Shown piece by piece: positions 12,221 to 30,855 of a stretch of 64,000 nt of DNA. The notes below the pieces were generated by a model. It searched no databases. It was not told where the DNA came from and worked only from the letters and a program-made list of their open reading frames with translations. Source of the stretch: a candidate division FCPU426 bacterium. GTDB lineage: Bacteria; Oederibacteriota; Muellerivitia; Muellerivitales; Muellerivitaceae. A program made the translations under genes and the position numbers. Within the stretch, counting starts at the first letter, position 1. Each line of letters starts with the position of its first letter. Location of the stretch: the NCBI GenBank assembly GCA_030041545.1, contig JASHNQ010000013.1:1-64000 (forward strand). The letters are read 5' to 3'.

Positions 12221-12249
12221 TTGACGCTGTCCCGAAGTGGTTCAATAAT
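12221..12249 (+). promoter_or_regulatory. Promoter of the dcw cluster (PmraZ)
   Basis: TTGACG (12221-12226), a 17-nt spacer and AATAAT (12244-12249); each hexamer matches 5 of 6 consensus bases. The start site should be near 12256, giving a leader of about 70 nt before the mraZ GTG. Confidence 0.75.
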
Positions 12250-12281
12250 GGCGCAAAGTGGCAGATAGTGGTAAAAAGTGG
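12234..12281 (+). promoter_or_regulatory. MraZ operator: five phased GTGG boxes
   Basis: GAAGTGG (12234), ATAATGG (12245), AAAGTGG (12255), ATAGTGG (12265) and AAAGTGG (12275). The last four start exactly 10 bp apart. MraZ is known to bind direct repeats about one helical turn apart upstream of its own gene (TGGGN in E. coli, AAAGTG-type in mollicutes). The array covers the spacer, the -10 and the initial transcribed region, as expected for autorepression. Confidence 0.8.
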
Positions 12282-12325
12282 TGAAATTCTAAAAACCCAT
12301 TATTTTTCAAGGCTTTGGAGGCCTC

Positions 12326-12784
12326 GTGTTTCGAGGGATCTTCCACAACTCAGTAGATGACAAGGGGCGCACGAGCATTCCGGCGCGGTTCCGCGAACAA
12401 ATCCGCGACAGCCATGAAACGCCACTGGTTTTGACCTTGGGGTTCGACCAATGCCTTTTTCTTTACCCCATGGATGCCTGGAAAAAGATCGAGGAGAAGC
12501 TGGCTTCCTTGGACACCTTGAACTCGGAAGTCCGCCAGTTCCAGCGCACGATTTTGAAAGCCACCGATGAGGTGGAGATGGACCAGCAGGGGCGCATCGT
12601 GATTTCGCCGGTGTTGAGGAAGGAAGGCGGCATTCACAAGAGCGTGGTGATCGTAGGGATGCTTCACCGCATCGAAATCTGGGATAAGGAGAAATACGAG
12701 AACTACCACGCCCAGACGACGCAATCGCTTGAACTTTTGGGACAGAAGCTCTCTGACAAGGGCATACAGTCGCTTACGCTCTAG
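12326..12784 (+). CDS. mraZ: Transcriptional regulator MraZ
   Basis: 152 aa with two SpoVT-AbrB-like halves: FRGIFHNSVDDKGRTSIPARFRE (residues 2-24) and VEMDQQGRIVISPVLRKEG (about 88-106). MraZ forms ring oligomers that bind repeats in the dcw promoter. The start is GTG at 12326 with GGAG at 12317-12320. It is the first gene of the cluster. The 96-bp gap to the next gene is filled by a palindromic repeat, unlike the usual tight mraZ-rsmH junction. Confidence 0.95.
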   Translation: MFRGIFHNSVDDKGRTSIPARFREQIRDSHETPLVLTLGFDQCLFLYPMDAWKKIEEKLASLDTLNSEVRQFQRTILKATDEVEMDQQGRIVISPVLRKEGGIHKSVVIVGMLHRIEIWDKEKYENYHAQTTQSLELLGQKLSDKGIQSLTL

Positions 12785-12860
12785 TTTTGAGTTTCGGAAA
12801 TTTTTAATTTCCTATCGGAAATTAAAAATAACAACAATTTAAAACTTACAACTTAGAACT
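12783..12860. repeat. Palindromic intergenic element, TTTTGAGTT arm type (mraZ-STAS junction)
   Basis: AGTTTTGAGTTTCGG, core ATTTTTAATTTCC-TATC-GGAAATTAAAAAT (perfect 13-bp stem, 12800-12829), then TTTAAAACTTACAACTTAGAACT. The left arm begins in the mraZ stop codon. Confidence 0.8.
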
Positions 12861-12880: not shown

Positions 12881-13234
12881 ATGGAAATCGGAATCGAGAT
12901 CAAGGAAAAGTTTTCTTGGATCCACGTGAACGGCGATTTGAGCGAGGGCGACTTGGGAAAGTTGGGGAATGCGGTTGAAACTTTGATGAAAAAGGGCTAC
13001 TTGCACGTGGTTTTGGATTTGACGGACGTTCCTTACATGAACGCCAAAGGGTTGGGGGCCCTGGTCAACCATTGGACCCACGTGCGCTTCAAGAGGGGGG
13101 ATCTCCGCATTGTCGGCCCTAACAGCCGCCTCCTGCACCTGTTCCGGGTCATGGGCGTGGACGCGCTTTTCGACATCTACCAGGATGTCCACGAAATGAT
13201 GGAGAAAACGGGAAGGCTTCCCGCCATCGCTTAA
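12881..13234 (+). CDS. STAS-domain protein (anti-sigma-antagonist fold) in the dcw cluster, first
   Basis: 117 aa, a complete STAS domain: strand IKEKFSWIHVNGDLSEGDLGKLGNAV, core LHVVLDLTDVPYMNAKGLGALVNHW, then LRIVGPNSRLLHLFRVMGVDALFDIY. SpoIIAA-type antagonists have DSSG with a phosphorylatable Ser at the helix start. Here the same position reads NAKG, so serine-kinase switching is unlikely. It sits between mraZ and rsmH with GGGGG just upstream of the ATG, and is followed by a second STAS gene. A binding or scaffold role in division control is inference. Confidence 0.85.
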   Translation: MEIGIEIKEKFSWIHVNGDLSEGDLGKLGNAVETLMKKGYLHVVLDLTDVPYMNAKGLGALVNHWTHVRFKRGDLRIVGPNSRLLHLFRVMGVDALFDIYQDVHEMMEKTGRLPAIA

Positions 13235-13289
13235 TGGCGGCTGCCGGGGGTTCGTCGTCGGCTGTTGACAAGAAGGGAAAGGAAAAGAC

Positions 13290-13625
13290 TTGGCTATCTA
13301 CATAACCAACGAAGCCATAATCGTGCTGCGCCTGTCGGGGGACGTCGGGGTTTCCGACATGGACGCGCTTTTGCGCAAGATGACGGACTTGGTCCTGGAG
13401 AACAAGAATAAAGTCGTCCTGAACTTCCGCCAAGTAAGGCACGTTTCCCTGAACGCCATCTCCAAGCTGGCCGAGCGCAACCAGCGCTTCCGGGCCCTGG
13501 GCGGGGAGATCAAACTGGCCGGACTGACGCCCTACGTCGCCAACCTGTTCAAGTTGGTCGGGGCTTATTCCGGCTTTGACATATCCCTCGATGAGGAAGA
13601 AGCACTCGCCCGCTTTGAAAGCTGA
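13290..13625 (+). CDS. STAS-domain protein in the dcw cluster, second
   Basis: 111 aa, TTG start at 13290 with AAAGGAAAAG upstream. STAS pattern: AIIVLRLSGDVGVSDMDALLRKM, NKVVLNFRQVRHVSLNAISKLAERNQRF, GGEIKLAGLTPYVANLFKLVG. The switch motif position reads SLNA, so the phosphorylatable Ser is absent here too. It is only distantly similar to its neighbour. Its last 35 bp overlap the start of rsmH, so the STAS pair is firmly embedded in the operon. Confidence 0.83.
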   Translation: MAIYITNEAIIVLRLSGDVGVSDMDALLRKMTDLVLENKNKVVLNFRQVRHVSLNAISKLAERNQRFRALGGEIKLAGLTPYVANLFKLVGAYSGFDISLDEEEALARFES

Positions 13626-14577
13626 ACCGATTCATACACCGGTTCTCCTCAAAGAAACGGTGGAATGGTTGTCGCCCCCTCCCGACGGGGTGGTGCTGGA
13701 CATGACGGTCGGGATGGGCGGCCACGCGTCGGAGCTCTTGAAACGCCTTCCGCGGGGCCGTTTGGTTGGTTTGGACCAGGATGCCGATGCCCTTCAACAC
13801 GCTGGCCGAGCACTCAGGAAAGACCCCCGGGTCTCCCTGTTCAAGGCTAACTTCGCCGACATCCGGTGGGTGCTGAAAGACCTTTCGATCAGCGAGGTGG
13901 ACAGCGTGTTGATGGATATCGGCGTATCTTCCCTCCAGTTGGACACGGCCGGGCGCGGCTTTTCCTTCAGCCACGACGGCCCCCTCGATATGCGCATGGA
14001 CACCCATTCGGGCCATACCGCCGCTTGGGTCATCAATACTTACCCGCAAGAAAGGCTCTCCCAAATCATCTTCGAATACGGCGAGGAGCCCAAGGCCCGC
14101 GCCCTGGCCCGCGCCATCGTGAAGGCCCGGGAGCAAAAACACTTGGAAACCACCGGGGAGCTAGCCTCGCTGGCCTTGAGGGTTTTGGGTAAGCCACGCC
14201 CCCGGCGGGGGGAGGCTTCCCGCCACCCCGCCACCCGCCTTTTCCAAGCCCTCCGCATCGAGGTCAACCGGGAACTGGAAGCGCTGGAAGAAGGCTTGAA
14301 GGCCGCCCTTTCCTTCTTGAAACCGGGCGGCCGTATCGCCGTCATCACCTTCCATTCCCTGGAGGACCGCATCGTCAAACAGTCCTTCAAAACCGAGGCC
14401 ACCGACTGCCTTTGCCCTCCCGATATCCCCCGATGTGTCTGCGGCCACAAGGCCTCGCTCAGGATCCTGACCGGCAAGCCGGTGATGGCCGCCGAGGAGG
14501 AGTTGGAACAAAATCCCCGCGCCCGAAGCGCGAAGCTCCGAGTCGCGGAAAAACTTAAGCTGACGGTTGGCGGCTGA
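13591..14577 (+). CDS. rsmH: 16S rRNA (cytosine1402-N4)-methyltransferase RsmH
   Basis: 328 aa from the ATG at 13591, a typical length. Motifs: HTPVLLKETVEWL, VVLDMTVGMGGHASELL (SAM-binding), MDIGVSSLQLDTAGRGFSF, DMRMD, LFQALRIEVNRELEAL, and the C-terminal HSLEDRIVKQSF and NPRARSAKLRVAEK. It methylates C1402 of 16S rRNA in the P-site. An upstream in-frame TTG at 13576 would lengthen it by five residues. Its stop lies in a GGCTGACAGCTCACAGG word of the intergenic repeat family (14572-14588). Confidence 0.96.
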   Translation: MRKKHSPALKAEPIHTPVLLKETVEWLSPPPDGVVLDMTVGMGGHASELLKRLPRGRLVGLDQDADALQHAGRALRKDPRVSLFKANFADIRWVLKDLSISEVDSVLMDIGVSSLQLDTAGRGFSFSHDGPLDMRMDTHSGHTAAWVINTYPQERLSQIIFEYGEEPKARALARAIVKAREQKHLETTGELASLALRVLGKPRPRRGEASRHPATRLFQALRIEVNRELEALEEGLKAALSFLKPGGRIAVITFHSLEDRIVKQSFKTEATDCLCPPDIPRCVCGHKASLRILTGKPVMAAEEELEQNPRARSAKLRVAEKLKLTVGG

Positions 14578-14629
14578 CAGCTCACAGGAAAGGCCAAGGC
14601 GAAAATTGCAATCCAGTGAAACCCTGAAC

Positions 14630-15034
14630 ATGGGGATGAAAAAAGCGGGGGAAATCCTCGACGCTGGCCTTTTTTGGCGCGGCAACCTAGCCAAAGCCGT
14701 CAAGCGCCGAGATTTCAAGGGCACCCTCTGGAGCGTCCTGGCCCTCAGCGCCTTCCTTTTCTTTTACGTTTGGCAGCACATGCAGGCCGTCAAACTGGGG
14801 TATGAGGTGCAGGGTTTGAAAATGGAAAAACAGGAATTAACCAACCAGTATTACTACCTCAAGTTCCAAATGTACGACGTGAACAGCCTTACCCACGTGG
14901 AAAAGGTGGCACGGGAGCAACTGGGGATGGTGACGCCCCTGGCGGACCAGATCGTGATCTTGGACGACGGCACCTTTTACCCGCGGTGGTTCTCCTTTTG
15001 GACCAGCGCCATGAAAAAAAACGACGACAAGTGA
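14630..15034 (+). CDS. ftsL: Cell-division protein FtsL (FtsL/FtsB type)
   Basis: 134 aa from ATG 14630; ATG 14636 and an upstream TTG at 14567 are alternatives, none with a clear ribosome site. Bitopic layout: a basic cytoplasmic segment (LAKAVKRRDFKG), one helix near residues 33-50 (LWSVLALSAFLFFYVW), then a coiled-coil (VKLGYEVQGLKMEKQELTNQYYYLKFQ) ending in VEKVAREQLGMVTP, the hallmark of the FtsL/DivIC fold. It would join FtsB and FtsQ in the divisome. The assignment rests on topology, motif and position. Confidence 0.85.
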   Translation: MGMKKAGEILDAGLFWRGNLAKAVKRRDFKGTLWSVLALSAFLFFYVWQHMQAVKLGYEVQGLKMEKQELTNQYYYLKFQMYDVNSLTHVEKVAREQLGMVTPLADQIVILDDGTFYPRWFSFWTSAMKKNDDK

Positions 15035-15041
15035 GCCGCCC

Positions 15042-15257
15042 ATGAACGCGCAGAAGCCCAACCCGGTTAAACCGAAGGAAACTCAGCCACCCGTGAGCGA
15101 AAAAAATGGGATCGACCCCAGCCCAACGACAAACGAAAAGGGCCGGCCCTCACGGATTTCCAACCGGTCTTTTCGCCCGAATCCATCCCATTCACCATCC
15201 CCTGCGGCTCGACCCTTTTTTGATTTGGAATCATCGGTTGCTTCGGAGGCCTTATGA
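15042..15257 (+). CDS. Small Pro/Ser-rich ORF coupled to ftsI
   Basis: 71 aa, ATG 7 bp after the ftsL stop, with its own stop overlapping the ftsI ATG (ATGA). The composition is low complexity: Pro, Ser, Asn, Lys and Arg, no hydrophobic segment, a central basic stretch RPSRISNRSFRPNPSHSPS. I recognise no family. It may be a disordered divisome accessory peptide, or simply translated spacer that couples ftsL to ftsI. The exact fit at both ends supports translation. Confidence 0.5.
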   Translation: MNAQKPNPVKPKETQPPVSEKNGIDPSPTTNEKGRPSRISNRSFRPNPSHSPSPAARPFFDLESSVASEAL

Positions 15258-17395
15258 GCGGGTTGAGACATTACAACCAAATCCAAAGGCGGATCCTGCT
15301 GCTGCAGGGTGCCCTCATGGCGTCGGTGCTTTGCGTGGAAGGCCGCTTGGTCTACCTTCAGGTCTTCAAGCATGTGGAATTCCGCCAATTGGCCTACCAC
15401 CAGCAATACACGCCGAAGGAGACCAGCCCTTCCCGGGGCGTCATCGAGGACCGGTCGGGGGCCTTGCTTGCCATGAATATCGGCTTGTTCAATGTGTGCG
15501 CCCATCCCAACCAGATCACCGACAAGGCGTCCACGGCCGAGGCCCTGTCCCGCGCCCTGGGAACGCCTTACGACGAGGTCCTTTCCAGGATTTCCGGCGA
15601 CAAGCCCTTTGCCTGGGTGGCCCGCCAAGTGCCTTATGAACGGTCCCGGGCGGTGGAAAGCCTGAAACTGCAGGGTGTGGAGGCCTCCCGCGAGCAAAGG
15701 CGGTTTTATCCCGACCACGAGATGGCCGCCCATGTGCTGGGTTTCGCGGGCATCGACGACCAGGGGCTGGACGGCTTGGAGCGGGAATATAACAACAGCC
15801 TTACCGGGAAAAGCGGGCTGGTTCTGACCGAAAGGGACGCCCGGGGCCGGGTGGTTTTATCCGACAACGAAACCAAAATGGCCGCCGTGGACGGCCTGAA
15901 CGTGGTGACCACCCTGGACAAGACGATCCAGCACATCGCCCAGGTGGAATTGGAGAAAGCCTACCAGAAATACCGCTGCAAGGCGGCCTCCATCGCCGTC
16001 ATGGACCCCCGCACGGGCGAAATCTTGGCCTTGGCCAACTGCCCCAACTTCGACCCCAACCACTTCAACGAGGCGCCCGGGGAATATTGGAAGGACCGAA
16101 TGGTGAACGACGAATTCGAGCCCGGCAGCACCTTCAAACTGGTGGCGGCCGTGGGCGCATTGGAAGAAGGCGCCGTGAACGAGGACGACAGGTTTTTTTG
16201 CGAAAACGGCGCCTACCACACCGATTACGGGAGGGTGGTAACGGACCACGAGAAGTACGGCTGGCTGACCTTCCGGGAAATCTTCGGATATTCCAGCAAC
16301 ATCGGCATGGTGAAGGTGGCCGCCAAGCTGGGGGAAAAAAACCTCTACCGTTATTGCCAGAGGTTCGGCTTCGGCGTGACCACCGGCGTCGACCTTCCGG
16401 GGGAGGTTTCCGGCATCCTGCGGCCCCTGGATAAGTGGAGCGGGCTTTCCATGACCACTATCCCTTACGGCTACGAGGTTTCGACGACGCCCATCCAGAT
16501 GCTGGCCGCCTACGCGGCCATCGCCAACGGCGGAGTCCTGATGCGGCCCCACGTGGTGAAGGAATTGGTGGATTCCAACGGCAAGGTGGTCCGGGAATTC
16601 GAGCCCCAAAAAATCCGCCGTGTTTGCTCGCCCAAAACCGCAAAGCGCATCACCGAAATGATGAAGTGGGTCGTGGAAAAGGGCACGGGGACGGCCGTGG
16701 CCCTTCCTTCCTACGATATCGCGGGGAAGACCGGCACCGCCTACAAGTTCATGAACGGCCGATACTCCAAGTACGACTACGTTTCCTCCTTCATCGGTTT
16801 CGTGCCGGCGGAAAACCCCCAATTCGCCATCTACGTCTCCTTGGACGATCCCCGCGGGCTTTATTGGGGCGGCTACACGGCCGGGCCGGTTTTTAAGGAA
16901 GTGGCCAAACGGGCCCTGGTGTACGACCTGGTGCCGGGCAAGGACCAGGCGCCGGCCGTGGCGCAGGGCGGGGGGCGGCATTCCGTCCCCTCGTTCAAGG
17001 GTCTGACCCGCGAACAAAGCCGGTGGCTGGCCCAGGAAAGCGGGCTTCGGATCAAATTCAACGGTCCCGGGGACCGGGTGGTGGACCAATCCCTGCCCGC
17101 CGGCGGGAAGTTGGCGCCCGAAAACAACAAACCCATCAAGATGGTCTTAACGCTGGGGACGCCCGCGGCGTCCCTCGCCCAGGGCGTCATGCCGGATTTA
17201 AGGGGGAAAACCAAACGCCAAGCCCTGGCCCTTTTGGCCCCGCTGGGGGTGCGCGTGAACTTCAAGGGGGAAGGAGTGGTGCGTTCGCAGTTTCCGCCCG
17301 CCGGACGGACGGTCCGGGACGGTGTCCCTTGCGATTTGAGCTGCGAGGTGCCGGTAGCCAAAACGGCCTCCGGCGGGGGGGAGGGCCATTCGTGA
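15254..17395 (+). CDS. ftsI: Penicillin-binding protein FtsI (PBP3-type transpeptidase) with PASTA domains
   Basis: 713 aa. Short cytoplasmic N-terminus, one membrane helix (ILLLQGALMASVLCVEGRLVYL), a dimerisation domain starting SRGVIEDRSGALLAMN, and a transpeptidase domain with catalytic Ser292 (GSTFK), SSN (347-349) and KTG (492-494). Two C-terminal PASTA repeats start near residues 577 (SVPSFKGLTREQSRWLAQESGL) and 643 (VMPDLRGKTKRQALALLAPLGV). PASTA domains sense muropeptide or control activity in Gram-positives; having them on a diderm FtsI is less usual. It cross-links septal peptidoglycan with FtsW. The murE GTG overlaps its stop by 4 bp. Confidence 0.95.
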   Translation: MSGLRHYNQIQRRILLLQGALMASVLCVEGRLVYLQVFKHVEFRQLAYHQQYTPKETSPSRGVIEDRSGALLAMNIGLFNVCAHPNQITDKASTAEALSRALGTPYDEVLSRISGDKPFAWVARQVPYERSRAVESLKLQGVEASREQRRFYPDHEMAAHVLGFAGIDDQGLDGLEREYNNSLTGKSGLVLTERDARGRVVLSDNETKMAAVDGLNVVTTLDKTIQHIAQVELEKAYQKYRCKAASIAVMDPRTGEILALANCPNFDPNHFNEAPGEYWKDRMVNDEFEPGSTFKLVAAVGALEEGAVNEDDRFFCENGAYHTDYGRVVTDHEKYGWLTFREIFGYSSNIGMVKVAAKLGEKNLYRYCQRFGFGVTTGVDLPGEVSGILRPLDKWSGLSMTTIPYGYEVSTTPIQMLAAYAAIANGGVLMRPHVVKELVDSNGKVVREFEPQKIRRVCSPKTAKRITEMMKWVVEKGTGTAVALPSYDIAGKTGTAYKFMNGRYSKYDYVSSFIGFVPAENPQFAIYVSLDDPRGLYWGGYTAGPVFKEVAKRALVYDLVPGKDQAPAVAQGGGRHSVPSFKGLTREQSRWLAQESGLRIKFNGPGDRVVDQSLPAGGKLAPENNKPIKMVLTLGTPAASLAQGVMPDLRGKTKRQALALLAPLGVRVNFKGEGVVRSQFPPAGRTVRDGVPCDLSCEVPVAKTASGGGEGHS

Positions 17396-18867
17396 AATTC
17401 CTGGCCCTCTCCAAAACCATCAAGGGCGCCAAGGCCGTGGGCAAGGGCAACCCGGTATTGACGGGCATCTCGGAAAACTCCAAAGCCGCCCAGCCAGGCG
17501 AGCTTTTCGTCTGTATCCCGGGATCCAGGGCCGACGGAAGGGCCTATGCCGAGGAAGCGGTGCAATTGGGCGTCCGGGCCGCCGTGGTCCAAGGCGAACC
17601 TTTGCGGGGCTTGGAAGTCCCCCAACTGGTGGTCAAGGACAGCCGGGAGGCCCTGGCCCGCCTGGCCCATGCTTACTACGGGAACCCTTCGAAAAAAGTC
17701 AAGGTTATCGGCGTGACCGGCACCAAGGGAAAAACCACCACCACCTACCTGATCCGCTCCATCCTTCAAAGGGCGGGCCAGGAAGCGGGCTTGATCGGCA
17801 CCATCGCCTACCAGGTGGGCTCCAAGGTTTATGAGGCCAACAATACCACGCCCTCGTCCCTGACCTTGGTGAAGCTGTTGGACGAGATGCGGCGGCAAAA
17901 ATGCAAATGGGCGGTGATGGAGGTTTCCTCGCACGCGCTGGAGATGAAGCGGGTCTTGGGGGTGGAGTTCACGGGAGCGGTCTTCACCAACCTGGGACGG
18001 GATCACTTGGATTACCACAAGAATTTCACCAATTATTTCCTGGCCAAGCGGCGGCTTTTTAAGGAATTCAAGACCGTCAAGGCCCGCGCCATCAACGCGG
18101 ATGACCCCTATGGCCGGAAGCTGCTGCGGGAACTCAGAACCAAGGCCGTGGGCTACGGGATCAAGTCCAAGTGCGCCTATCACGCCACCCACGTGGAACA
18201 TAAACCCGGCTTGATCCGATTCGAAGTGCAGGGACAAAAATTCGAAGCGCCCCTGACAGGCCTCTTCAACGTTTACAACTCGCTGGCCGTCCTGTCGGTC
18301 TTGAGAGAGCTGGGCCTTTCCTGGGAAGCGCTGAAGGACGGGTTGAAACACGCGCCCGCGGTCCCGGGACGTTTCGAGGAAGTCTCGGCCGGGCAGGATT
18401 TCACGGTGCTGGTGGATTATGCCCATACCCCCGACGCCTTGAAGCAGGCCCTGACCGCCTCCCGGGAGATTTTGGGGAAAAAAAGCCCGCACCGGTTGAT
18501 CTCGGTTTTTGGGTGCGGCGGGGACCGGGACAAAACCAAGCGCCCCTTGATGGGGAAGATTTCCTCCCGATTGGCCGACGTGACGGTGGTGACTTCGGAC
18601 AATCCTCGAACGGAAAATCCCTCGGCCATTTTGGAAGACATCCTGCGGGGGATCCCCCGCCCTCTTTTACAAAACAGCCATCGTAAGGTTTGGGTGGAAG
18701 AGGAACGGGGCGTGGCCATCCAAAAAGCCCTGTCCATGGCCCAAAAGGGGGATCTGGTCCTGATCGCGGGCAAGGGCCACGAGACGTACCAGATCATCGG
18801 CAGCGAGAAGCGCCACTTCGACGACCGGGAAATAGTGCGGCGGATTTTAAAGGAAAACCGAAAGTGA
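17392..18867 (+). CDS. murE: UDP-MurNAc-L-Ala-D-Glu:meso-diaminopimelate ligase MurE
   Basis: 491 aa from GTG 17392 (GTGA overlap with ftsI). An in-frame extension to 17023 is only a shadow inside ftsI. Mur-ligase motifs: GVTGTKGKTTTT (108-119), VMEVSSHALEMKRV and FTNLGRDHLDYHKNF (carbamylated-Lys and catalytic region), and the C-terminal VDYAHTPDALKQAL and FGCGGDRDKTKRPLM. DNPR at 403-406 predicts meso-diaminopimelate as the added amino acid, not lysine. It ends just before an A/T-rich palindromic element. Confidence 0.97.
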   Translation: MKFLALSKTIKGAKAVGKGNPVLTGISENSKAAQPGELFVCIPGSRADGRAYAEEAVQLGVRAAVVQGEPLRGLEVPQLVVKDSREALARLAHAYYGNPSKKVKVIGVTGTKGKTTTTYLIRSILQRAGQEAGLIGTIAYQVGSKVYEANNTTPSSLTLVKLLDEMRRQKCKWAVMEVSSHALEMKRVLGVEFTGAVFTNLGRDHLDYHKNFTNYFLAKRRLFKEFKTVKARAINADDPYGRKLLRELRTKAVGYGIKSKCAYHATHVEHKPGLIRFEVQGQKFEAPLTGLFNVYNSLAVLSVLRELGLSWEALKDGLKHAPAVPGRFEEVSAGQDFTVLVDYAHTPDALKQALTASREILGKKSPHRLISVFGCGGDRDKTKRPLMGKISSRLADVTVVTSDNPRTENPSAILEDILRGIPRPLLQNSHRKVWVEEERGVAIQKALSMAQKGDLVLIAGKGHETYQIIGSEKRHFDDREIVRRILKENRK

Positions 18868-18946
18868 AACACGAAGCCACGAAGCCACGAAGAAAAACCA
18901 TTTTTAAAAAGATTTTAAAACCTTCGTGTCTTTGTGGCTTCGTGTT
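18868..18946. repeat. Palindromic intergenic element, CACGAAG arm type (murE-murF junction)
   Basis: AACACGAAGCCACGAAGCCA continues to 18892, and the right arm at 18922-18946 is its reverse complement at 22 of 25 positions. The 29-bp centre is A/T-rich (AAAAACC ... GATTTTAAAACC). The element fills the gap; the murF start lies 16 bp after it. Confidence 0.85.
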
Positions 18947-18962
18947 GGATTTGGCAGTTTAA

Positions 18963-20303
18963 GTGCTTCCGTGGACTTTGAGGGAGGTGGAGGCGCTCAC
19001 GAACGGGCGCCTGGTGAAAGGCGACCCGGAAACGCCGGTTTTGGGCGTGACGCACGACTCCCGGGCCGTGAAACTGGGCGACCTCTTCGCGGCCATCCAA
19101 GGGAGCCGGTTGGATGGTCACGGGTTCGTGAGGGAGGCGGCGCAAAAGGGCGCCAAGGCGGCGGTGGTTTCCCGCATCCTGCCGGCATACCTCCCCCAAG
19201 TCCTGGTCAAGGATACCACCGAAGCCCTGGGCCAAATGGGAAAGGCCCAGAGGCTCCAGTGGAACGGCCCGGTGGTGGCGGTGACGGGCAGCGTGGGCAA
19301 GACCACGGTCAAGGATATGACGGCTCACCTGCTTTCGGGGTCCTTCCGGGCCTTAAAGACCGAGGGAAACCTGAACAACCAATGGGGCCTGCCGCTGACC
19401 CTGTTGAAACTGACCAAGGAGCATGAGGCGGCCGTGGTGGAACTGGGCATTAACCACCCCGGGGAAATGGAAAGGCTTTCTGAGATCGCCAGGCCCGACG
19501 TGGCCGTGGTGACAGCCATCGGGGAAGCGCACCTGGGGTTTTTCAAGGACCGCCGCCACTTGGCGCGGGAAAAACAAACGATAGCGGCCCATTTAAGGGA
19601 AGGAGGAACCAACCTCTTGAACGCGGACGACGCTTTGCTGAAGAAGAACGTGGAGAACGTGATGACCTTCGGGCTGAAATTGGGCCAGGTGCGGGCCGTC
19701 CACCTGGAGGCCGACGGGCTGGGGACGCGGTTTGAGATCCAGGCGCAGGGTGAAACCGTGGCCACGCGGCTTTCCATGCCGGGCGCCCACAACGTGCGCA
19801 ATTCCATGGCGGCGGTGGCGGCCGGCCTGGCCTTGGGCATCCCCTTGAAGGCCCTGGCCCAACGCTTGAAGAGCTTTGTTTCCGAAGCGCCCATGCGCAT
19901 GGAGATCAAGAACCTGGGTGGAATCCTTTTCGTCAACGACGCGTACAACGCCTCGCCGACCTCCATGGAGGCGGCCTTGGTTACCTTCGCCGGCATGCAA
20001 GGCCCCCGGCGCAAATGGGCGGTCCTGGGGGACATGCTGGAACTCGGGGAATTCTCGCCCGAGACCCATTACCGCATCGTGAAAAGGGCGGTGGACAGCG
20101 GTTTGGAGGGGTTGCTATTGATGGGGCCCCGCATGCAGAGGGCCTTCAACGGCCTGACGGAGGAGCAAAAAAGCAAGGTTCGCGCCTTCGGGGAAACGGC
20201 AGAGGCAAGGGCTTTCCTGCGGCGGTCGGTGGAGAGGGGCGACGCGGTCCTCTTGAAGGCCTCGCGGGGAATGAGGTTGGAAAGAATCCTCGAAGGATTT
20301 TGA
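18963..20303 (+). CDS. murF: UDP-MurNAc-tripeptide:D-Ala-D-Ala ligase MurF
   Basis: 446 aa, GTG start. VTHDSRAVKLGDLFAAIQGSRLDGH is the family N-terminal domain. TGSVGKTTVKDM (108-119) is the P-loop, LNNQWGLPLTLL and ELGINHPGEMERL follow, and the C-terminal domain has FVNDAYNASPTSMEAAL and WAVLGDMLELGEFS. It adds D-Ala-D-Ala to the UDP-tripeptide, made here by the Ddl encoded in the same cluster. No ribosome site is visible before the GTG, perhaps because the repeat occupies that space. Confidence 0.96.
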   Translation: MLPWTLREVEALTNGRLVKGDPETPVLGVTHDSRAVKLGDLFAAIQGSRLDGHGFVREAAQKGAKAAVVSRILPAYLPQVLVKDTTEALGQMGKAQRLQWNGPVVAVTGSVGKTTVKDMTAHLLSGSFRALKTEGNLNNQWGLPLTLLKLTKEHEAAVVELGINHPGEMERLSEIARPDVAVVTAIGEAHLGFFKDRRHLAREKQTIAAHLREGGTNLLNADDALLKKNVENVMTFGLKLGQVRAVHLEADGLGTRFEIQAQGETVATRLSMPGAHNVRNSMAAVAAGLALGIPLKALAQRLKSFVSEAPMRMEIKNLGGILFVNDAYNASPTSMEAALVTFAGMQGPRRKWAVLGDMLELGEFSPETHYRIVKRAVDSGLEGLLLMGPRMQRAFNGLTEEQKSKVRAFGETAEARAFLRRSVERGDAVLLKASRGMRLERILEGF

Positions 20304-20304
20304 C

Positions 20305-20499
20305 ATGCTCGACCTGAAGCGGTTCCTGGACGGCTTGGCGGACGAGAACCACCCCTTCCGCAAAGGGCCGGACTTGAGGCAAGGATCGGCCCTGCCTCCG
20401 GCGGAAACCATGGAGAAGGTGTGGGGGCCTTTCCGGAGGGATGCCGGGTGGAGGGAACAACAGATGCGGTTTTATTTCATGCGGCTTAACAAGAACTGA
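20305..20499 (+). CDS. Small conserved-position ORF between murF and mraY
   Basis: 64 aa, ATG one base after the murF stop. Soluble and charged (LDLKRFLDGLADENHPFRKG, then ETMEKVWGPFRRDAGWREQQMRFYFMRLNKN in parts), with a helical C-terminus rich in Arg, Trp and Phe. No family is recognised. Codon use resembles its neighbours (many G/C third positions), and the tight spacing argues for real translation. A repeat element follows directly. Confidence 0.6.
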   Translation: MLDLKRFLDGLADENHPFRKGPDLRQGSALPPAETMEKVWGPFRRDAGWREQQMRFYFMRLNKN

Positions 20500-20514
20500 A
20501 AAGAAAGGAAAACT

Positions 20515-20621
20515 TCGAATTTTGAATTATAAATTTTGAATTTTAAATTGTTGATGGTTTTCAACGAATTTCGCTGAAAACCTTCCGAAATTCAAAATTA
20601 AAAATTGAGAATTCAAAATTG
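20515..20621. repeat. Palindromic intergenic element, AATTTTGAATT arm type (before mraY)
   Basis: GAATTTTGAATTATAAATT and onward, core GGTTTTCA-ACGAATTTCGC-TGAAAACC (20556-20582, inner CGAA/TTCG pairing too), right arm ending GAGAATTCAAAATTGG. It ends against the putative GGAGCGAAG ribosome site of mraY. Confidence 0.85.
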
Positions 20622-20634
20622 GAGCGAAGCGACA

Positions 20635-21723
20635 ATGCTCTACCGCTTGTTGTATCCATTAGCCGGCCATTTCATCGGCTTCAATGTTTTCCGTTACGTG
20701 ACGTTCCGCAGCGTCTATGCCGCCGTCACGGCTTTCGGGCTTTGCCTGCTGTGGGGACGCGCGGTGATCGCCCGCATCCAGTCGGCCCAGCTGGGCGAGA
20801 AGATCCGCCGGGACGGCCCGGCGGGCCATTCCTCCAAGGCGGGAACGCCCACCATGGGGGGCATCCTTATTCTTTTGGCGATTCTCCTCAGCAGCCTTCT
20901 TTGGGTGAGGTGGGACTCGAAATTCTTTTGGCTGGCCTTCTTTTCCATTCTCTGGTTCGGGTGCATCGGATTCCTGGACGACCTCATCAAACTCAAGGGC
21001 ATCGGCAAAAGCCGGGGCATTCCCGGCGGGTGGAAGTTGATGCTCCAGGGAATCGGCGCCATCCTCATCGTTTACGGTTATTTGTACATCCTGCCGGACG
21101 AATTTCCCTTGAAAACCTCCATCACCCTCCCTTTCTTTAAACACCCCCTCAACCTGGACGTCCTCTATCCGGTTTTCGCGACCCTGGTTATCGTGAGCGC
21201 CTCCAATTCGGTCAACCTGACGGACGGATTGGACGGACTGGCCATCGGTTGCACCACCTTCGCGGCCATGGCCTTCGTGGTGGTTACCTACGTGTCGGGC
21301 AACGTGAAGTTCAGCGAATACCTCAAGATCATCCAAGTGCCCGGTTCCAGCGAGCTCACGGTGCTTTGCGCGGCCCTGGTGGGCGCGGGGCTGGGGTTCC
21401 TTTGGTTCAACGCGCCGCCCGCGCAAATCTTCATGGGCGACACCGGCTCGCTGGCCTTAGGCGGCCTCTTAGGGACCATCGCGGTGATGGTGAAGCAGGA
21501 AATCCTCCTCATCATCGTAGGCGGCATCTTCGTGGCCGAGGCGCTTTCGGTGATCATCCAGGTGACTTCCTTCAAGATGAGCGGCAAGAGGGTCTTCAAG
21601 ATGGCGCCCCTGCACCACCATTTCGAGCTGTCGGGGGTTCCCGAATCCAAACTCATCGTGAGGTTCTGGATCATCGCGATCATTTTGACCTTGCTGACGT
21701 TGAGTACCCTGAAGCTGCGTTGA
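20635..21723 (+). CDS. mraY: Phospho-MurNAc-pentapeptide transferase MraY
   Basis: 362 aa from ATG 20635, preceded by GGAGCGAAGCGA. Ten-helix membrane enzyme with family motifs: SKAGTPTMGGILIL, GFLDDLIKL, NSVNLTDGLDGLAIGC, WFNAPPAQIFMGDTGSLALGG, and the HHHFE motif in MAPLHHHFELSG. It transfers phospho-MurNAc-pentapeptide to undecaprenyl phosphate to make lipid I. An upstream in-frame ATG at 20605 lies inside the repeat and is unlikely. Confidence 0.96.
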   Translation: MLYRLLYPLAGHFIGFNVFRYVTFRSVYAAVTAFGLCLLWGRAVIARIQSAQLGEKIRRDGPAGHSSKAGTPTMGGILILLAILLSSLLWVRWDSKFFWLAFFSILWFGCIGFLDDLIKLKGIGKSRGIPGGWKLMLQGIGAILIVYGYLYILPDEFPLKTSITLPFFKHPLNLDVLYPVFATLVIVSASNSVNLTDGLDGLAIGCTTFAAMAFVVVTYVSGNVKFSEYLKIIQVPGSSELTVLCAALVGAGLGFLWFNAPPAQIFMGDTGSLALGGLLGTIAVMVKQEILLIIVGGIFVAEALSVIIQVTSFKMSGKRVFKMAPLHHHFELSGVPESKLIVRFWIIAIILTLLTLSTLKLR

Positions 21724-21743
21724 GGAATAGAGAAAGGAGATAG

Positions 21744-21849
21744 GTTTGAAGTTCGCAGTGTGAAGTTCGAAGTGAAGGAAGGTTTTTCAATGGAAATCCA
21801 TTGAAAAACCAACAATAACTTCGAACCCCTAACTTCGAACTCCTAACTT
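21744..21849. repeat. Palindromic intergenic element, GAAGTTCGAAGT arm type (mraY-murD junction)
   Basis: Left words GAAGTTCGCAGTGTGAAGTTCGAAG in part; core GGTTTTTCAATGGA-AA-TCCATTGAAAAACC (21781-21810, perfect 14-bp stem); right words AACTTCGAACCCCTAACTTCG and onward. It is followed at once by the GAGCGAAGCGA 11-mer also found before mraY. Confidence 0.85.
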
Positions 21850-21859
21850 GAGCGAAGCG

Positions 21860-23257
21860 ATGCACTACGTACACGGAAAACAGGTGGCGGTCCTCGGGTT
21901 GGGCCGGTCCGGCTTCGCGGCGGCCCGGCTTTTGTCCGTCCACGGGGCCCACGTGGTGGTCCTGGACGACAAGACGCCGGAAAAACTTTCGGCCTGGATC
22001 GAGCGGGCCGAGCAACTGGCCCACGTGAAGCTCCTGCTGGGCGGCATCGACCCCGCCACCGTGGCCAACGTGGACCTCGTGGTGGTTTCACCCGGCGTTC
22101 CGGCGAACCACCCGGCCCTGGAGGCGGCCCGGGAGAAGGGAATCACGGTGATCGGTGAAATGGAGCTGGCTTTCGGCTATTGCCCGGCGCCGGTGACGGC
22201 CATCACGGGCACCAACGGCAAGACCACCACCACCACCCTGACGGCCGCCATGATCCAGGCCTCGGGAAAGAAGGCCGTCGCCTGCGGCAACATCGGGAAG
22301 GCCTTCGCGGAGGCGGTTTTCGAGCTTTCTTCGGAGGATTGGGCGGTGCTGGAAGTTTCCAGCTTCCAACTGGAAACCATCGAGGAATTCCGGCCACGGA
22401 TCGCCGCGGTCCTGAACGTGACGCCGGACCACCTGGACCGGCACGAGGGCATGCAGGACTACGTGGAGACCAAGGGGCGGATCTTCGAAAACCAAAAACC
22501 GGGGGAGGCCGCCCTGCTGAATGTTTCCGACAAGTACACCCCCATCCTTTCCAGCCTGGTCAAAAGCCGGCTTTATTTCTTCGGCTTTGCGGCAAACAAG
22601 CCGGCCCCCAAACCCGGTTGTTACGCCGTGGACGGCAACATCGAGCTTTGGGGCCGCCCCTTGCTCCCCTTGTCGGAATTGAAAATACCCGGGCCTCACA
22701 ACGTGGAAAACGCCTGCGCGGCGTCCCTGATGGCCTCCCTTTGCGGGGTTCCGGACGAATCCATCGCGAAGACCCTCCGGGACTTCACGGGGGTGGAGCA
22801 CCGGCTGGAGCCGGCGGGTGAAATCAACGGCATCCGTTTCGTGAACGACTCCAAGGGAACCAACGTGGATTCGGTGCTGAAGGCCCTGGAAAGCTTCGAA
22901 AGGCCCATCGTGCTCATCCTGGGCGGCCGGGACAAGGCGGTGGATTTCACGAAGCTGTCCCCGCTGGTGAAGCAAAAGGTGACCCGTATCGTGGCTTTCG
23001 GGGAATGCAAGCAGAAGGTCGTGCAGCAGCTTTCCTCCGCCGCCACGGTGGTGGAGGCGGGCACCCTGGAGGAAACGGTGAACGGAGCCTACGCGGCCTG
23101 CGAGAAAGGCGGGGTGGTGTTGTTTTCACCCGGTTGCGCCAGTTTCGACATGTTCCAGAACTACGAGGACCGCGGAAGGCAGTTCAAGGCCGTGGTCGCC
23201 AAGATGGCCCAGCAAAAGGCCATAGGAGACAGTTCGCAGCTCACAGGTCACAGGTGA
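21860..23257 (+). CDS. murD: UDP-MurNAc-L-alanine:D-glutamate ligase MurD
   Basis: 465 aa from ATG 21860. N-terminal Rossmann part VAVLGLGRSGFAAARLL, P-loop TGTNGKTTTTTL (about 116-127), LEVSSFQLETIEEF, LNVTPDHLDRHEGMQDY, C-terminal FVNDSKGTNVDSVLKAL and ILGGRDKAVDF, and the SPGCASFDMFQNYEDRG signature. It adds D-glutamate. The last ten residues (GDSSQLTGHR) are encoded by an ACAG-word repeat, so the tail is probably an acquired extension after the normal end. Confidence 0.96.
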   Translation: MHYVHGKQVAVLGLGRSGFAAARLLSVHGAHVVVLDDKTPEKLSAWIERAEQLAHVKLLLGGIDPATVANVDLVVVSPGVPANHPALEAAREKGITVIGEMELAFGYCPAPVTAITGTNGKTTTTTLTAAMIQASGKKAVACGNIGKAFAEAVFELSSEDWAVLEVSSFQLETIEEFRPRIAAVLNVTPDHLDRHEGMQDYVETKGRIFENQKPGEAALLNVSDKYTPILSSLVKSRLYFFGFAANKPAPKPGCYAVDGNIELWGRPLLPLSELKIPGPHNVENACAASLMASLCGVPDESIAKTLRDFTGVEHRLEPAGEINGIRFVNDSKGTNVDSVLKALESFERPIVLILGGRDKAVDFTKLSPLVKQKVTRIVAFGECKQKVVQQLSSAATVVEAGTLEETVNGAYAACEKGGVVLFSPGCASFDMFQNYEDRGRQFKAVVAKMAQQKAIGDSSQLTGHR

Positions 23258-23264
23258 CAGGAAA
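23227..23264. repeat. Half-element of the ACAG-word family overlapping the murD 3-prime end
   Basis: GACAGTTCGCAGCTCACAGG and on to GTGACAGG: degenerate 8-bp words like those near murB-ddl and after ridA. It starts inside murD and contains its stop codon. Confidence 0.65.
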
Positions 23265-23277
23265 GACATGAAAGAAA

Positions 23278-23313
23278 AGACCTTCCCTGAAAGCCGTGGA
23301 CTATCAAAGGTCT
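23278..23313 (+). promoter_or_regulatory. Hairpin in the murD-ftsW leader
   Basis: AAGACCTT (23278-23285) pairs perfectly with AAGGTCTT (23306-23313) and is followed by ATTTTAGG. It precedes the small ORF at 23338 and could be an attenuator or weak terminator. Confidence 0.4.
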
Positions 23314-23337
23314 TATTTTAGGAAAGGAGTTTCATTC

Positions 23338-23421
23338 TTGCGTTCGGATTCTGAGACCAACGCTTACCAACGCCTTTTCAACACCTCCGACGCCGTGCTC
23401 GGAATCCGAACGGAAGGATGA
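23338..23421 (+). CDS. Candidate 27-aa small ORF (leader peptide?) between murD and ftsW
   Basis: TTG start at 23338 with GGAAAGGAGT 8 nt upstream, 27 codons, TGA at 23419. The peptide starts MRSDSETNAYQRLF and ends GIRTEG. Third codon positions are mostly G or C, as in the surrounding genes. The first and last 15 bases of the region form an inverted repeat (CGTTCGGATTCTGAG at 23341-23355, CTCGGAATCCGAACG at 23398-23412, 14 of 15 pairing), so the coding region itself folds. It may be a regulatory leader, or a chance frame within a structured RNA. Confidence 0.35.
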   Translation: MRSDSETNAYQRLFNTSDAVLGIRTEG

Positions 23422-23440
23422 ACGTCCAAAGGCAGTGTCG

Positions 23441-23539
23441 GGTTTTGAGTTCTAAGTTTTGAGTTGATGAACGTTCCCCAATGAAATTCATTGGGAAACA
23501 AACCACAACTTAAAACTACAAACTTAAAACTAAGAACTG
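23441..23539. repeat. Palindromic intergenic element, TTTTGAGTT arm type (before ftsW)
   Basis: GGTTTTGAGTTCTAAGTTTT and onward, core GTTCCCCAATGAA-A-TTCATTGGGAAAC (23473-23499, 12 of 13 pairs), right arm AACTTAAAACTACAAACTTA and onward to AAGAACTGA. It ends about 10 bp before the ftsW ATG. Confidence 0.85.
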
Positions 23540-23548
23540 AGGTCCAAG

Positions 23549-24715
23549 ATGGGTTTTAAAAACAAAGAACAAGCTTCGCCGGACTTCCTGATGTTCCTGC
23601 TGACGCTGATTTTGGTCACGGTGGGGCTCATTATGATCTACAGCGCCTCGGCCATCCTGGCCCACGACCGCTACGGAAGCTCCTATTACTTCTTCGGCCG
23701 CCAGCTGCTCTGGGTTCTGGCGGGGAGCGCCGCCATGTGGGTGGTTTCGAGGGCGGACCTGGAGTCCCTGCGCGCCTTGGCCATCCCGGGGTTATTCATG
23801 GCCCTCTTCCTGATGGCTTTGGTTTGCGTGCCAGGCATCGGGAAGACGGTGGGCGGGGCCCAAAGGTGGTTCCGCCTGGGGCCTTTTTCTTTCCAACCCT
23901 CGGAGGTTCTTAAAATCGCCCTGGTTTTCTACTTGGCGGATTCCCTGGAGCGGCGGCGGCAAACCCTCTCGAACCTCTCGGGGCTGTTCCCCTACCTGGT
24001 GATCCTGGGGATCTGCATGCTGCTTTTGGAAAAACAACACGACTTCGGGACGGCCGTGCTTTTGGCGCTGGTCACCATCCTCCTGCTCTTCCTGGCCGGG
24101 ATACAGTGGGCTTTTTTCCTGATCCCCCTGTCCATCCTGGTTCCGGTCTTCATCTTCCTGGTGGAGTCGGCCAGTTACCGCATGAAGCGCATCACGGCCT
24201 TTTTAAACCCCTGGGAAGACCCGCAGGGCGCCGGGTTCCAGCTGATCCAAAGCCTGATCGCCGTGGGCAACGGCGGGCCGCTAGGGGTGGGGCTTTCCAA
24301 CAGCTCCCAAAAGCTTTTTTACCTGCCCGCGCCCCATACGGATTTCATCTTCGCCATCATCGCCGAGGAATTGGGCCTTTGGGGGGCGGGGACCCTGGTT
24401 TTTCTCTTCGCTATCTTTATCTTGCGGGGTTTCAAGGTGGCCGCGGTATGGGGCCAAAGGGAGGGCGGGATGTTCCTATCGCTCCTGGCCGCCGGTGTTA
24501 CGGGGATGATCGGATTCCAAACCTTGATCAACTTAGGAGTGGTGACGGGGATCCTGCCCACCAAGGGCATCCCCCTGCCGCTCATTTCTTACGGCGGCTC
24601 CTCCATGGTTTTCACGCTGGTTTCCATCGGGATTCTCTTCAATATCTCCCGGGGAATCAAAATGCCTTTGTCCTTGACGGCAGGGGATGGGTACGGGGCT
24701 TTAGGGGCCAGTTAA
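23549..24715 (+). CDS. ftsW: Septal peptidoglycan glycosyltransferase FtsW (SEDS family)
   Basis: 388 aa, about ten membrane helices. SEDS landmarks: LVTVGLIMIYSASAI in the first helix, GGAQRWFRLGPFSFQPSEVLKIAL, the long loop ending RITAFLNPWEDPQGAGFQ, then GVGLSNSSQKLFYLPAPHTDFIFAIIAEELGL and KGIPLPLISYGGSSM. It polymerises lipid II at the septum with FtsI. The C-terminus is short. The upstream gap of 291 bp is the largest inside the cluster. Confidence 0.95.
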   Translation: MGFKNKEQASPDFLMFLLTLILVTVGLIMIYSASAILAHDRYGSSYYFFGRQLLWVLAGSAAMWVVSRADLESLRALAIPGLFMALFLMALVCVPGIGKTVGGAQRWFRLGPFSFQPSEVLKIALVFYLADSLERRRQTLSNLSGLFPYLVILGICMLLLEKQHDFGTAVLLALVTILLLFLAGIQWAFFLIPLSILVPVFIFLVESASYRMKRITAFLNPWEDPQGAGFQLIQSLIAVGNGGPLGVGLSNSSQKLFYLPAPHTDFIFAIIAEELGLWGAGTLVFLFAIFILRGFKVAAVWGQREGGMFLSLLAAGVTGMIGFQTLINLGVVTGILPTKGIPLPLISYGGSSMVFTLVSIGILFNISRGIKMPLSLTAGDGYGALGAS

Positions 24716-24756
24716 AGGCAGGGGAAAAACAATGAAAATGGTGAAAGGTGTAAAAA

Positions 24757-25902
24757 GTGGAAGGGAACAAGAAGCGGATCATCATCACCGGCGGAGGCAC
24801 GGGGGGGCATATTTTCCCTGGTATCGCCATCGCGCGGGAATTGTCGAGGCGCCCGGAGGTCCAAGTGCTTTACGTGGGTAAGGCCGAGGGGTTGGAATCC
24901 AAATGGGTCCCGGACTCGGGGTTCGAGTTTGAGGGCATCCAAGCCAGCGGTTTCCCACGGGGACTGTCGGTGAGGCTTTTCACCTTTTGGCTGGATTCCG
25001 CCAAAGGGATGGCCCAGGCGGGCCGTATTCTGCGGCATTTCCGGCCGGATGCGATTTTTTCAACGGGAGGTTACGTGTCGGTGCCGGTGTCGCTGGCTGC
25101 GGCTTTGAGGGGCATCCCGGTGGGGCTTTTCGAGCCCAACGTGGAGCCCGGATGGGCGGCCCGGTTTTTATCTTTTTTCTCAAGGAGGATTTTCGTCGGG
25201 TTTGAGGACACTTTAAAACGCCTTTCGAAAAGGAGAACCCAATGGACGGGAATTCCGGTGCGGGAAGAAATCGTGACGGCGGACAAGGGGAAGGCGCGGG
25301 AGAGTTTCGGGTTGAGCCCGGATACGACCACTCTCCTGATGCTGGGCGGCAGCCAGGGGGCACATACGCTCAACCAGCACATGACGGATGTGATCAAGTT
25401 TTTGGGGGAGGGGGACCAGAAGGTGCAGGTGATCATGATGACCGGCTGGAACGACTACCGCAAGACGGTGGACCAACTGGAAAACTGCGGTCTCAAGGTA
25501 ATCCTGAGGCCCTTTATCAGCAACATCCACGAGGCCTACGCGGCGGCCGACCTGGTGGTGGCCCGCGCCGGGGCCATGACCTGCGCCGAAGCCCTAAGCC
25601 GGGGATTGCCGGCTCTTTTTATTCCCTATCCCCACGCTTCCGGACACCAGGAGATGAATGCGAGGGCCTTGGAGAAGGCTGGATCGGCAGTCGTGATTAC
25701 CGAAAAGGAGTTGGACGACGAAAGCCTCACCCGGACGCTGATTTCCCTCCTTTCGGATGAGGGGAAACTGAAAGCGATGGGCGAGGCCGCCCGCAAATTG
25801 GCCAAGCCGGGAGCGGCCGCCGACATCGTGAAAAGCCTCCTCGAAATGGCGGAAAGAAAGAATCAACCGCGAAGGCGCGAAGAACGCGAAGGAAGACTTT
25901 GA
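24757..25902 (+). CDS. murG: UDP-GlcNAc:lipid I N-acetylglucosaminyltransferase MurG
   Basis: 381 aa from GTG 24757 (no closer in-frame ATG). GT28 motifs: ITGGGTGGHIFPGIAIARELSRR, FSTGGYVSVPVSLAAALRGIPV, LLMLGGSQGAHTLNQ, and ADLVVARAGAMTCAEALSRGLPALFIPYPHA with GHQEMNA. It makes lipid II. The last 13 residues (from NQPRRREEREGRL) are encoded by the CGCGAAG repeat that begins the next junction, so this strongly charged tail is repeat-derived. Confidence 0.95.
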   Translation: MEGNKKRIIITGGGTGGHIFPGIAIARELSRRPEVQVLYVGKAEGLESKWVPDSGFEFEGIQASGFPRGLSVRLFTFWLDSAKGMAQAGRILRHFRPDAIFSTGGYVSVPVSLAAALRGIPVGLFEPNVEPGWAARFLSFFSRRIFVGFEDTLKRLSKRRTQWTGIPVREEIVTADKGKARESFGLSPDTTTLLMLGGSQGAHTLNQHMTDVIKFLGEGDQKVQVIMMTGWNDYRKTVDQLENCGLKVILRPFISNIHEAYAAADLVVARAGAMTCAEALSRGLPALFIPYPHASGHQEMNARALEKAGSAVVITEKELDDESLTRTLISLLSDEGKLKAMGEAARKLAKPGAAADIVKSLLEMAERKNQPRRREEREGRL

Positions 25903-25975
25903 AAGATGAAACAAAAAATGGAATTGAATCTAAAGAATTTTTGTTTTCTTCGCGATTTTAGCGTCTTCGCGGTGA
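25866..25975. repeat. Palindromic intergenic element, CGCGAAG arm type (murG-murC junction)
   Basis: ACCGCGAAGGCGCGAAGAAC and onward (inside murG), an A/T-rich centre, then CTTCGCGATTTTAGCGTCTTCGCGGT as the complementary arm. The same family occurs on the other side of murC. Confidence 0.85.
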
Positions 25976-25987
25976 AAGAGGCTGGTT

Positions 25988-27391: not shown

Positions 27392-27402
27392 AAAAACATA
27401 AT

Positions 27403-27512
27403 TTACCGCGAAGGCGCGAAGAACGCGAAGAAAGGCTTTAAAGAAATGAAAAGAGATCGAATCCAAAAAGGTTTTTTTGATTTTCTTCGCGAACTTCGCA
27501 CCTTCGCGGTAA
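27403..27512. repeat. Palindromic intergenic element, CGCGAAG arm type (murC-murB junction)
   Basis: TTACCGCGAAGGCGCGAAGA and onward; right arm TTCTTCGCGAACTTCGCACC and onward to GCGGTAA. The arms pair at 26 of 29 positions around a centre of about 50 bp. The left arm is nearly identical to that of the murG-murC copy. Confidence 0.88.
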
Positions 27513-27527
27513 AGGTTTGGTTTTGAC

Positions 27528-28496: not shown

Positions 28497-28566
28497 CAGT
28501 CGTCAGTCGTTAGCTGGCAGTTTCGAAGCATTTACTAACGACTGGGGACCGACAACTGATAGCTGG
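28489..28566. repeat. Palindromic intergenic element, CTGACAGTCGTCAGTCG arm type (murB-ddl junction)
   Basis: GCAGCTGACAGTCGTCAGTC and onward, then ACTAACGACTGGGGACCGAC and ACTGATAGCTGG as a degenerate complement. Words are 7-8 bp. It overlaps the murB stop codon. Confidence 0.75.
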
Positions 28567-28622
28567 TTGAATGCGACGCCTACGACAACACGGTTGGGAA
28601 ATTCATAATACCGGAGCGTGAG

Positions 28623-30577: not shown

Positions 30578-30729
30578 AACCACAGCGGGTTTTGCGGAAT
30601 TACCGGAAAAAACTCAAAAGGATGGTGGCGTCCCCCCTCAGGACCATGGACCGGGCCAAGCAGGTGAACCTCAAAATGATCAAGGTTTGTTTCGGGCCCT
30701 GCCGCTGCTTCTCGGCGGCCAAACGCTAG
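30574..30729 (+). CDS. Unannotated 51-aa basic Cys-containing protein between ftsQ and ftsA
   Basis: ATGA overlap with the ftsQ stop (ATG 30574), TAG at 30727. The peptide is highly cationic (QRVLRNYRKKLKRM near the start) and ends in a compact Cys motif VCFGPCRCFSAAKR (three Cys, CxxxCxC). Codon use matches ftsQ and ftsA. No known family comes to mind. A membrane-surface or nucleic-acid-binding peptide is possible; metal binding by the Cys cluster is speculative. It is followed by a 32-bp perfect inverted repeat. Confidence 0.6.
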   Translation: MKPQRVLRNYRKKLKRMVASPLRTMDRAKQVNLKMIKVCFGPCRCFSAAKR

Positions 30730-30743
30730 AAAGGCAGAAAAGC

Positions 30744-30832
30744 GAATTTTAAATTACGGTTTATTTTCAGCCGGTAAAACCGGCTGAAAATAAACCGTAA
30801 TTTAAAATTCAAAATTCATAATTCAAAATTTC
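30744..30832. repeat. Long perfect palindrome of the AATTTTAAATT type (before ftsA)
   Basis: Arms 30744-30775 and 30779-30810 are perfectly complementary over 32 bp with an AAA loop (centre CAGCCGGT-AAA-ACCGGCTG). An extra right-arm word stretch follows (AAAATTCATAATTCAAAATT). It ends about 11 bp before the GGGGGTGG ribosome site of ftsA. Confidence 0.92.
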
Positions 30833-30855
30833 TTTTTTTGAAGGGGGTGGATGGG

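Follow-up and report, generated by a model that had tools for sequence, protein, structure and literature searches.

The stretch of DNA analyzed here (64,000 nt; hereafter the window) lies on contig C24 of a genome of 3.8 Mb (98.5% complete), and it carries a dcw cluster in the order mraZ, STAS1, STAS2, rsmH, ftsL, PBP, murE, murF, mraY, murD, ftsW, murG, murC, murB, ddl, ftsQ, ftsA, ftsZ (Table 1). The PBP (ftsI-like), murE and murF genes were identified by reading the ORF sequences, unlike their Pfam-scanned neighbors. Apart from the one or two genes added at position 2, gene content and gene order match the canonical cluster, which begins mraZ-rsmH-ftsL. The STAS genes are thus additions to a complete cluster and replace no missing gene. 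An earlier note on this DNA had placed two STAS genes between mraZ and rsmH, with the second overlapping rsmH; the Pfam and NCBIfam profiles and the coordinates confirm this arrangement. The candidate start codons of rsmH (TTG at 13576, ATG at 13591 and TTG at 13615) all lie within STAS2, so that its 3' end overlaps rsmH by 50, 35 or 11 nt depending on the start chosen.

Table 1. Features of the mraZ-rsmH region and the remainder of the dcw cluster in the window.
Feature	Position	Strand	Basis and details
Sigma-70-like promoter	12221..12249	+	TTGACG, 17 nt, AATAAT; consensus scan, 10/12 matches
MraZ-box-like operator	12255..12286	+	AGTGG x3 at 10-bp spacing (12257, 12267, 12277); tandem repeat AAAGTGGTAA x3.2
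mraZ	12326..12784	+	TIGR00242, 143.7 bits (cut-off 98); PF02381, 115 bits
13-bp inverted repeat, mraZ-STAS1 gap	12800..12829	+	Arms ATTTTTAATTTCC / GGAAATTAAAAAT, 4-nt loop, AT-rich
STAS1, extra STAS gene	12881..13234	+	117 aa; PF01740, 55.3 bits, 6.2e-15
STAS1 switch loop, NAKG	13040..13051	+	Gap-free alignment to SpoIIAA and RsbV; Ala at the Ser58 position
STAS2, phylum-wide dcw STAS gene	13290..13625	+	111 aa, TTG start; PF01740, 46.5 bits, 3.4e-12
STAS2 switch loop, SLNA	13446..13457	+	Gap-free alignment to SpoIIAA; Leu at the Ser58 position
rsmH (mraW)	13576..14577	+	TIGR00006, 347 bits; Pfam and NCBIfam
Remaining canonical dcw genes, ftsL to ftsZ	14567..33506	+	ftsL and mraY through ftsZ by Pfam

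Both STAS1 and STAS2 are single-domain, STAS-only ORFs that score above the Pfam gathering score for PF01740 (22.6 bits) and have a predicted STAS fold, which identifies them as STAS domain proteins. STAS1 also passes the cut-off for the anti-sigma factor antagonist family TIGR00377, and STAS2 fails it. Neither is fused to a transporter domain, as a STAS domain of the SulP/SLC26 type would be. Their neighbors in the window are dcw genes; no gene for an RsbT/RsbW kinase or a SpoIIE phosphatase is found in the window's dcw cluster, and no mlaF, mlaE or mlaD ABC transporter gene lies beside them. A few genes downstream of the cluster, at 39412-40824, a response regulator is encoded that combines a sigma-54 activator domain with a Fis domain.

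To what extent the arrangement is shared was read from 45 genomes of FCPU426/Goldbacteria, the candidate phylum to which the window's organism belongs and the survey was confined, representing 16 families (f1-f16; the window's family is f1). Both mraZ and rsmH were located in 40 of them, and a co-directional STAS gene occupies the interval in 33 of these 40 (families f1, f3 and f6-f16), including one, G030, in which a contig break separates two STAS genes, one on each side. Within this one phylum the gene therefore has the conserved, co-directional position across lineages that characterizes a member of the dcw cluster, and its retention in relatives rules out the chance insertion that the earlier note had allowed for. 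A search for the pair beside mraZ in other genomes, as the earlier note had suggested, showed that a STAS gene in this slot is common but that the pair is limited to f1. The usual state of the phylum is a single STAS gene, of which STAS2 is the counterpart; STAS1 is found in seven of the eight f1 genomes, the window's included, and is absent from G024, the first branch of the family. In G024 (contig C10), the 378-nt gap between mraZ and the STAS gene (L047:807-1184) contains repeated GATGAAC-type words where the other f1 genomes have STAS1. We considered whether this gap holds a remnant of STAS1 and rejected the idea, as it has no STAS-like reading frame.

In the other seven genomes, mraZ abuts rsmH with no STAS gene between them: G023 (f2), G003 and G006 (f4), and G007, G008, G010 and G011 (f5). 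On the RsmH tree, the absence corresponds to two changes, one in the f4+f5 clade and one in G023, and because the tree places G023 as sister to f1, a loss is likely in f2. For f4+f5 the reading depends on the root of the RsmH tree, and the absence could be either a loss or the state before a gain that followed the split of these families from the rest. Relocation of the dcw STAS gene in the STAS-less lineages can be rejected for G023 and G010, in which the STAS matches carry SSAG and are ordinary paralogs; a search of G003, G006, G007, G008 and G011 for STAS genes elsewhere gave no match.

Several features suggest how the genes are expressed. The promoter-like site is weak alone, since about 0.8 comparable matches are expected by chance in the region; it directly precedes the MraZ boxes. 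A further AGTGG is present at 12236, ahead of the operator repeats, and of 22 genomes examined nearly all have AGTGG/GTGG repeats ahead of mraZ. The window's repeats resemble the direct repeats, AAAGTG[T/G], to which MraZ binds in the Mollicutes (PMC8475190). There is no terminator-like site within the window's mraZ-rsmH stretch. Good ribosome-binding sites precede the STAS genes, which have, in many families, stop/start overlaps with rsmH of the ATGA or TGATG type (the overlap in f1 is longer). Together, the repeats, the promoter-like site, the lack of a terminator-like site, the ribosome-binding sites and the overlaps suggest that the STAS gene is probably part of a translationally coupled operon controlled by MraZ. 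The MraZ N-termini themselves are divergent in f13 (G033, G034, G035) and f16 (G041-G044), with weak Pfam scores and with DLKDR, DSKDR, DDKNR and similar sequences in place of the D-x-K-G-R motif; their DNA binding may be altered.

As RNA, the inverted repeat of the mraZ-STAS1 gap folds at -19 kcal/mol (z -2.4). It was considered as a conserved regulator and rejected because its sequence is unconserved in G028, G026, G027 and G029; it has no Rfam match and is probably incidental. Different strong hairpins are found in the same gap in G029 and G030.

The closest known relatives of STAS1 and STAS2 are SpoIIAA and RsbV, which they resemble in fold, length, single-domain architecture, and best sequence and structure matches. 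AlphaFold2 models of STAS1 and STAS2 have mean pLDDT values of 83.6 and 89.6, respectively, and the best PDB matches of both are SpoIIAA in complex with SpoIIAB; the STAS2 model also matches RsbS (TM 0.88). In the HMMER alignments, MDSSGL of SpoIIAA corresponds to MNAKGL in STAS1 and VSLNAI in STAS2 with no gaps across the switch; therefore, the residue at the position of the phosphorylated Ser58 is alanine in STAS1 and leucine in STAS2. This supports the earlier reading of the DSSG switch as NAKG and SLNA, with the phosphorylatable serine absent from both.

To place these proteins among the STAS domains of the phylum, we built a maximum-likelihood tree of 87 domains with the four switch columns removed. 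The dcw STAS proteins, comprising 32 of the single or STAS2 type and seven STAS1, are separated from 48 paralogs with support of 97/87, and by this tree they are one lineage, distinct from the other STAS proteins of the phylum. STAS1 forms a long-branched clade inside or beside the dcw lineage; with about 110 columns the finer structure is unsure, and joining STAS1 to the f1 STAS2 proteins, the grouping that fits an origin of STAS1 by tandem duplication of STAS2, is not rejected (p-AU 0.30).

Comparison of the window with G028, G027, G026 and G029 yields dN/dS values of 0.07-0.11 (STAS1) and about 0.14 (STAS2). The same comparisons give 0.14-0.16 for rsmH, which the STAS genes thus equal or undercut, and 0.03-0.07 for mraZ where computable. 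Against the more distant G025, dN/dS is 0.31 for both STAS genes. Judged by these substitution patterns, STAS1 and STAS2 are working proteins under strong purifying selection, and chance or decay is excluded by the conservation of the gene across the phylum together with the low dN/dS (0.07-0.14) against the nearer relatives. The same selection on amino acids, along with the dcw-specific conserved residues described below and the fact that seven genomes dispense with the gene, makes it most improbable that the STAS ORF is mainly a translational spacer, coupling or setting the translation of rsmH while its protein has little function, even though the STAS-rsmH overlap is tight in many families.

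The loss of the switch serine extends to the whole dcw lineage. At the Ser58 position, the 39 dcw STAS proteins have leucine (11), valine (10), alanine (11, seven of them the complete set of STAS1 members), isoleucine (3), methionine (2), arginine (1) or serine (1), while 50 paralogs have serine in all but one case, a proline. A switch serine or threonine is hence found in 1/39 dcw STAS proteins versus 49/50 paralogs (Fisher p 7e-23, a descriptive value, as the rows are related and the paralogs were sampled by score). Restoration of the serine in orthologs, which the earlier note had named as counting against its reading, is thus limited to the dcw STAS protein of G013 (NSTG); the dcw STAS of G032, outside the 39-row count, has NVSG. 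In addition, the dcw lineage has conserved residues of its own: His51 (30/32), directly before the switch, where 48 of 50 paralogs have tyrosine; Glu62 (28/32), where paralogs have serine or glycine; and Tyr82 and Asn85 (24/32 each) and a basic residue at position 28 in most members, three positions at which the paralogs mostly have glutamate. These residues fit a different but conserved interface, onto which they would map.

With the switch serine missing in 38 of 39 proteins and no RsbW/SpoIIAB-type kinase in the window's operon, the dcw STAS proteins depart from canonical SpoIIAA/RsbV antagonists; they differ as well in having no adjoining phosphatase gene, in their dcw location and in their own set of conserved residues. 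In the window's own genome, the remaining six STAS genes have the motifs SSAG, SSAG, SSAG, SSGG, SSSG and SSNC, and one of them (contig C78) adjoins a large ORF with HATPase_c_2 and SpoIIE domains, indicating that a normal-looking partner-switch module exists outside the dcw cluster. A second conserved link between a STAS gene and a housekeeping gene, also outside dcw, is seen in genomes of f1 and f2, where a STAS gene with a canonical SSAG switch follows an ftsY-like gene at a distance of 12-24 nt (L004:1486-1836 in G000:C2, L137:1462-1812 in G024 and L150:1468-1818 in G023).

In two genomes from separate lineages, G031 (1.6 Mb) and G001 (4.7 Mb), no STAS gene was found besides that of the dcw cluster, and neither SpoIIE nor a convincing RsbW was found. 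Profile searches of G031 (assembly 89% complete) gave zero matches to HATPase_c_2 and zero to SpoIIE; in G001 (assembly 93% complete) SpoIIE was not found and the HATPase_c_2 matches are weak and probably of the histidine-kinase type. Given these completeness values, kinase genes could sit in the unassembled parts of both genomes. Stressosomes were a further candidate, as RsbS is a strong structural match and f1 has two STAS genes side by side, and phosphorylation-independent signaling is documented in the Bacillus subtilis stressosome (PMC3944199). The dcw STAS proteins, however, are associated with no RsbT kinase gene, and they have neither an N-terminal sensor domain nor the phosphosites; those of the window are small (117 and 111 aa) single-domain proteins with no kinase gene nearby, and most of the phylum has one STAS gene. 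The earlier suggestion that the pair may link division-gene expression to a partner-switching or stressosome-like complex is thus not upheld: a module of either kind is rejected as a general explanation, given the absence of RsbT, RsbW and SpoIIE genes from the cluster and the findings in G031 and G001. Since the serine was lost and the gene was kept in these two genomes without a phosphatase or a convincing kinase, the dcw STAS is not a canonical phospho-switch antagonist or a stressosome.

A constitutively active anti-sigma antagonist is another candidate. A STAS protein without the serine cannot be phosphorylated, and so it could stay bound to an RsbW-type anti-sigma factor, free the sigma factor and tie its activity to growth and division. 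The closest solved relatives of the dcw STAS are indeed SpoIIAA and RsbV complexed with their kinases, and the window's genome has HATPase_c_2, SpoIIE and further STAS genes. We nevertheless consider this explanation unlikely: it does not account for G031 and G001, in which the gene is kept as the only STAS, and at positions 28, 82 and 85 most dcw STAS proteins carry K/R, Tyr and Asn/His, where the SSAG paralogs have mainly acidic residues. Still less likely is a displaced phosphosite, whereby a serine or threonine at the position of SpoIIAA Ser59 (as in NVSG, NATG and NMTG) replaces Ser58. Such a residue is found in 21 of 32 dcw STAS proteins, but in f1 it is mostly asparagine (STAS2) or lysine/asparagine (STAS1), in f8, f9, f3 and f10 it is alanine, proline, lysine and valine, respectively, and G031 has NVSG yet no match to either kinase or phosphatase domain.

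STAS proteins can also act as binding subunits in the absence of a phospho-switch, as MlaB does in binding the MlaF ATPase. By analogy, the dcw STAS could have a structural role in division, as the earlier note also proposed, and serve as a divisome scaffold for FtsZ, FtsA or a Mur enzyme; the gene sits in a complete dcw cluster, and non-switching STAS subunits are present in other systems. We regard this as doubtful. Every dcw STAS locus seen is between mraZ and rsmH and never near ftsA or ftsZ, several lineages manage without the gene, and in sequence the protein matches MlaB only marginally (E 0.16), with the dcw STAS genes located outside any mla operon.

The reading we prefer, at about even odds, is that the dcw STAS is a phosphorylation-independent adaptor whose partner is encoded in the same operon, with MraZ and RsmH the most plausible candidates. 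On this reading, the operon for division and cell-wall synthesis acquired a STAS gene in this lineage, and its product, which keeps the STAS fold and has given up the phospho-switch, would act as a constitutive, non-phosphorylated protein-binding adaptor. By binding MraZ or RsmH, it could tune dcw transcription or the activity of RsmH; in f1, a second copy, STAS1, would have been added, perhaps forming a hetero-pair with STAS2. These two partners are favored because the gene is always between theirs and because MraZ and MraW/RsmH of Escherichia coli are reportedly antagonistic (as cited in PMC8475190). Operon membership alone is no proof of a role with either protein, and neither mraZ nor rsmH needs the STAS gene to exist, as f2, f4 and f5 keep both without it. 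Distances among dcw STAS proteins carry no MraZ-specific signal (partial correlation 0.01); a signal with RsmH (0.56) may be explained by the shared species tree. A more specific version, in which the dcw cluster gained a switch-less STAS that physically links the repressor MraZ and the 16S rRNA methyltransferase RsmH as a phosphorylation-free regulator of division-gene expression, was retained in most of the phylum and later became a hetero-pair in f1, is a tentative proposal that we think rather improbable as a whole.

A reconstruction of dcw evolution, reaching back beyond the last bacterial common ancestor, inferred losses and moves but "likely no gene gain" (PMC8871954). That study followed 17 known genes in 85 representative species, and a lineage-specific addition could therefore escape it. 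A review of STAS-only proteins centers on the phosphorylated serine (PMC8256260), and a limited literature search, covering part of the papers on dcw evolution, found none that joins STAS with mraZ or the dcw cluster. Few bacterial gene clusters are as stable as dcw, and the insertion of a gene at position 2, with its retention in most of a phylum, clearly departs from that pattern. With their serine-keeping paralogs, the dcw STAS proteins form a clean natural set for studying STAS function without phosphorylation; they also provide a way into the roles of MraZ and RsmH, which are poorly understood, and suggest that the cell-division genes have a new partner that works independently of phosphorylation.
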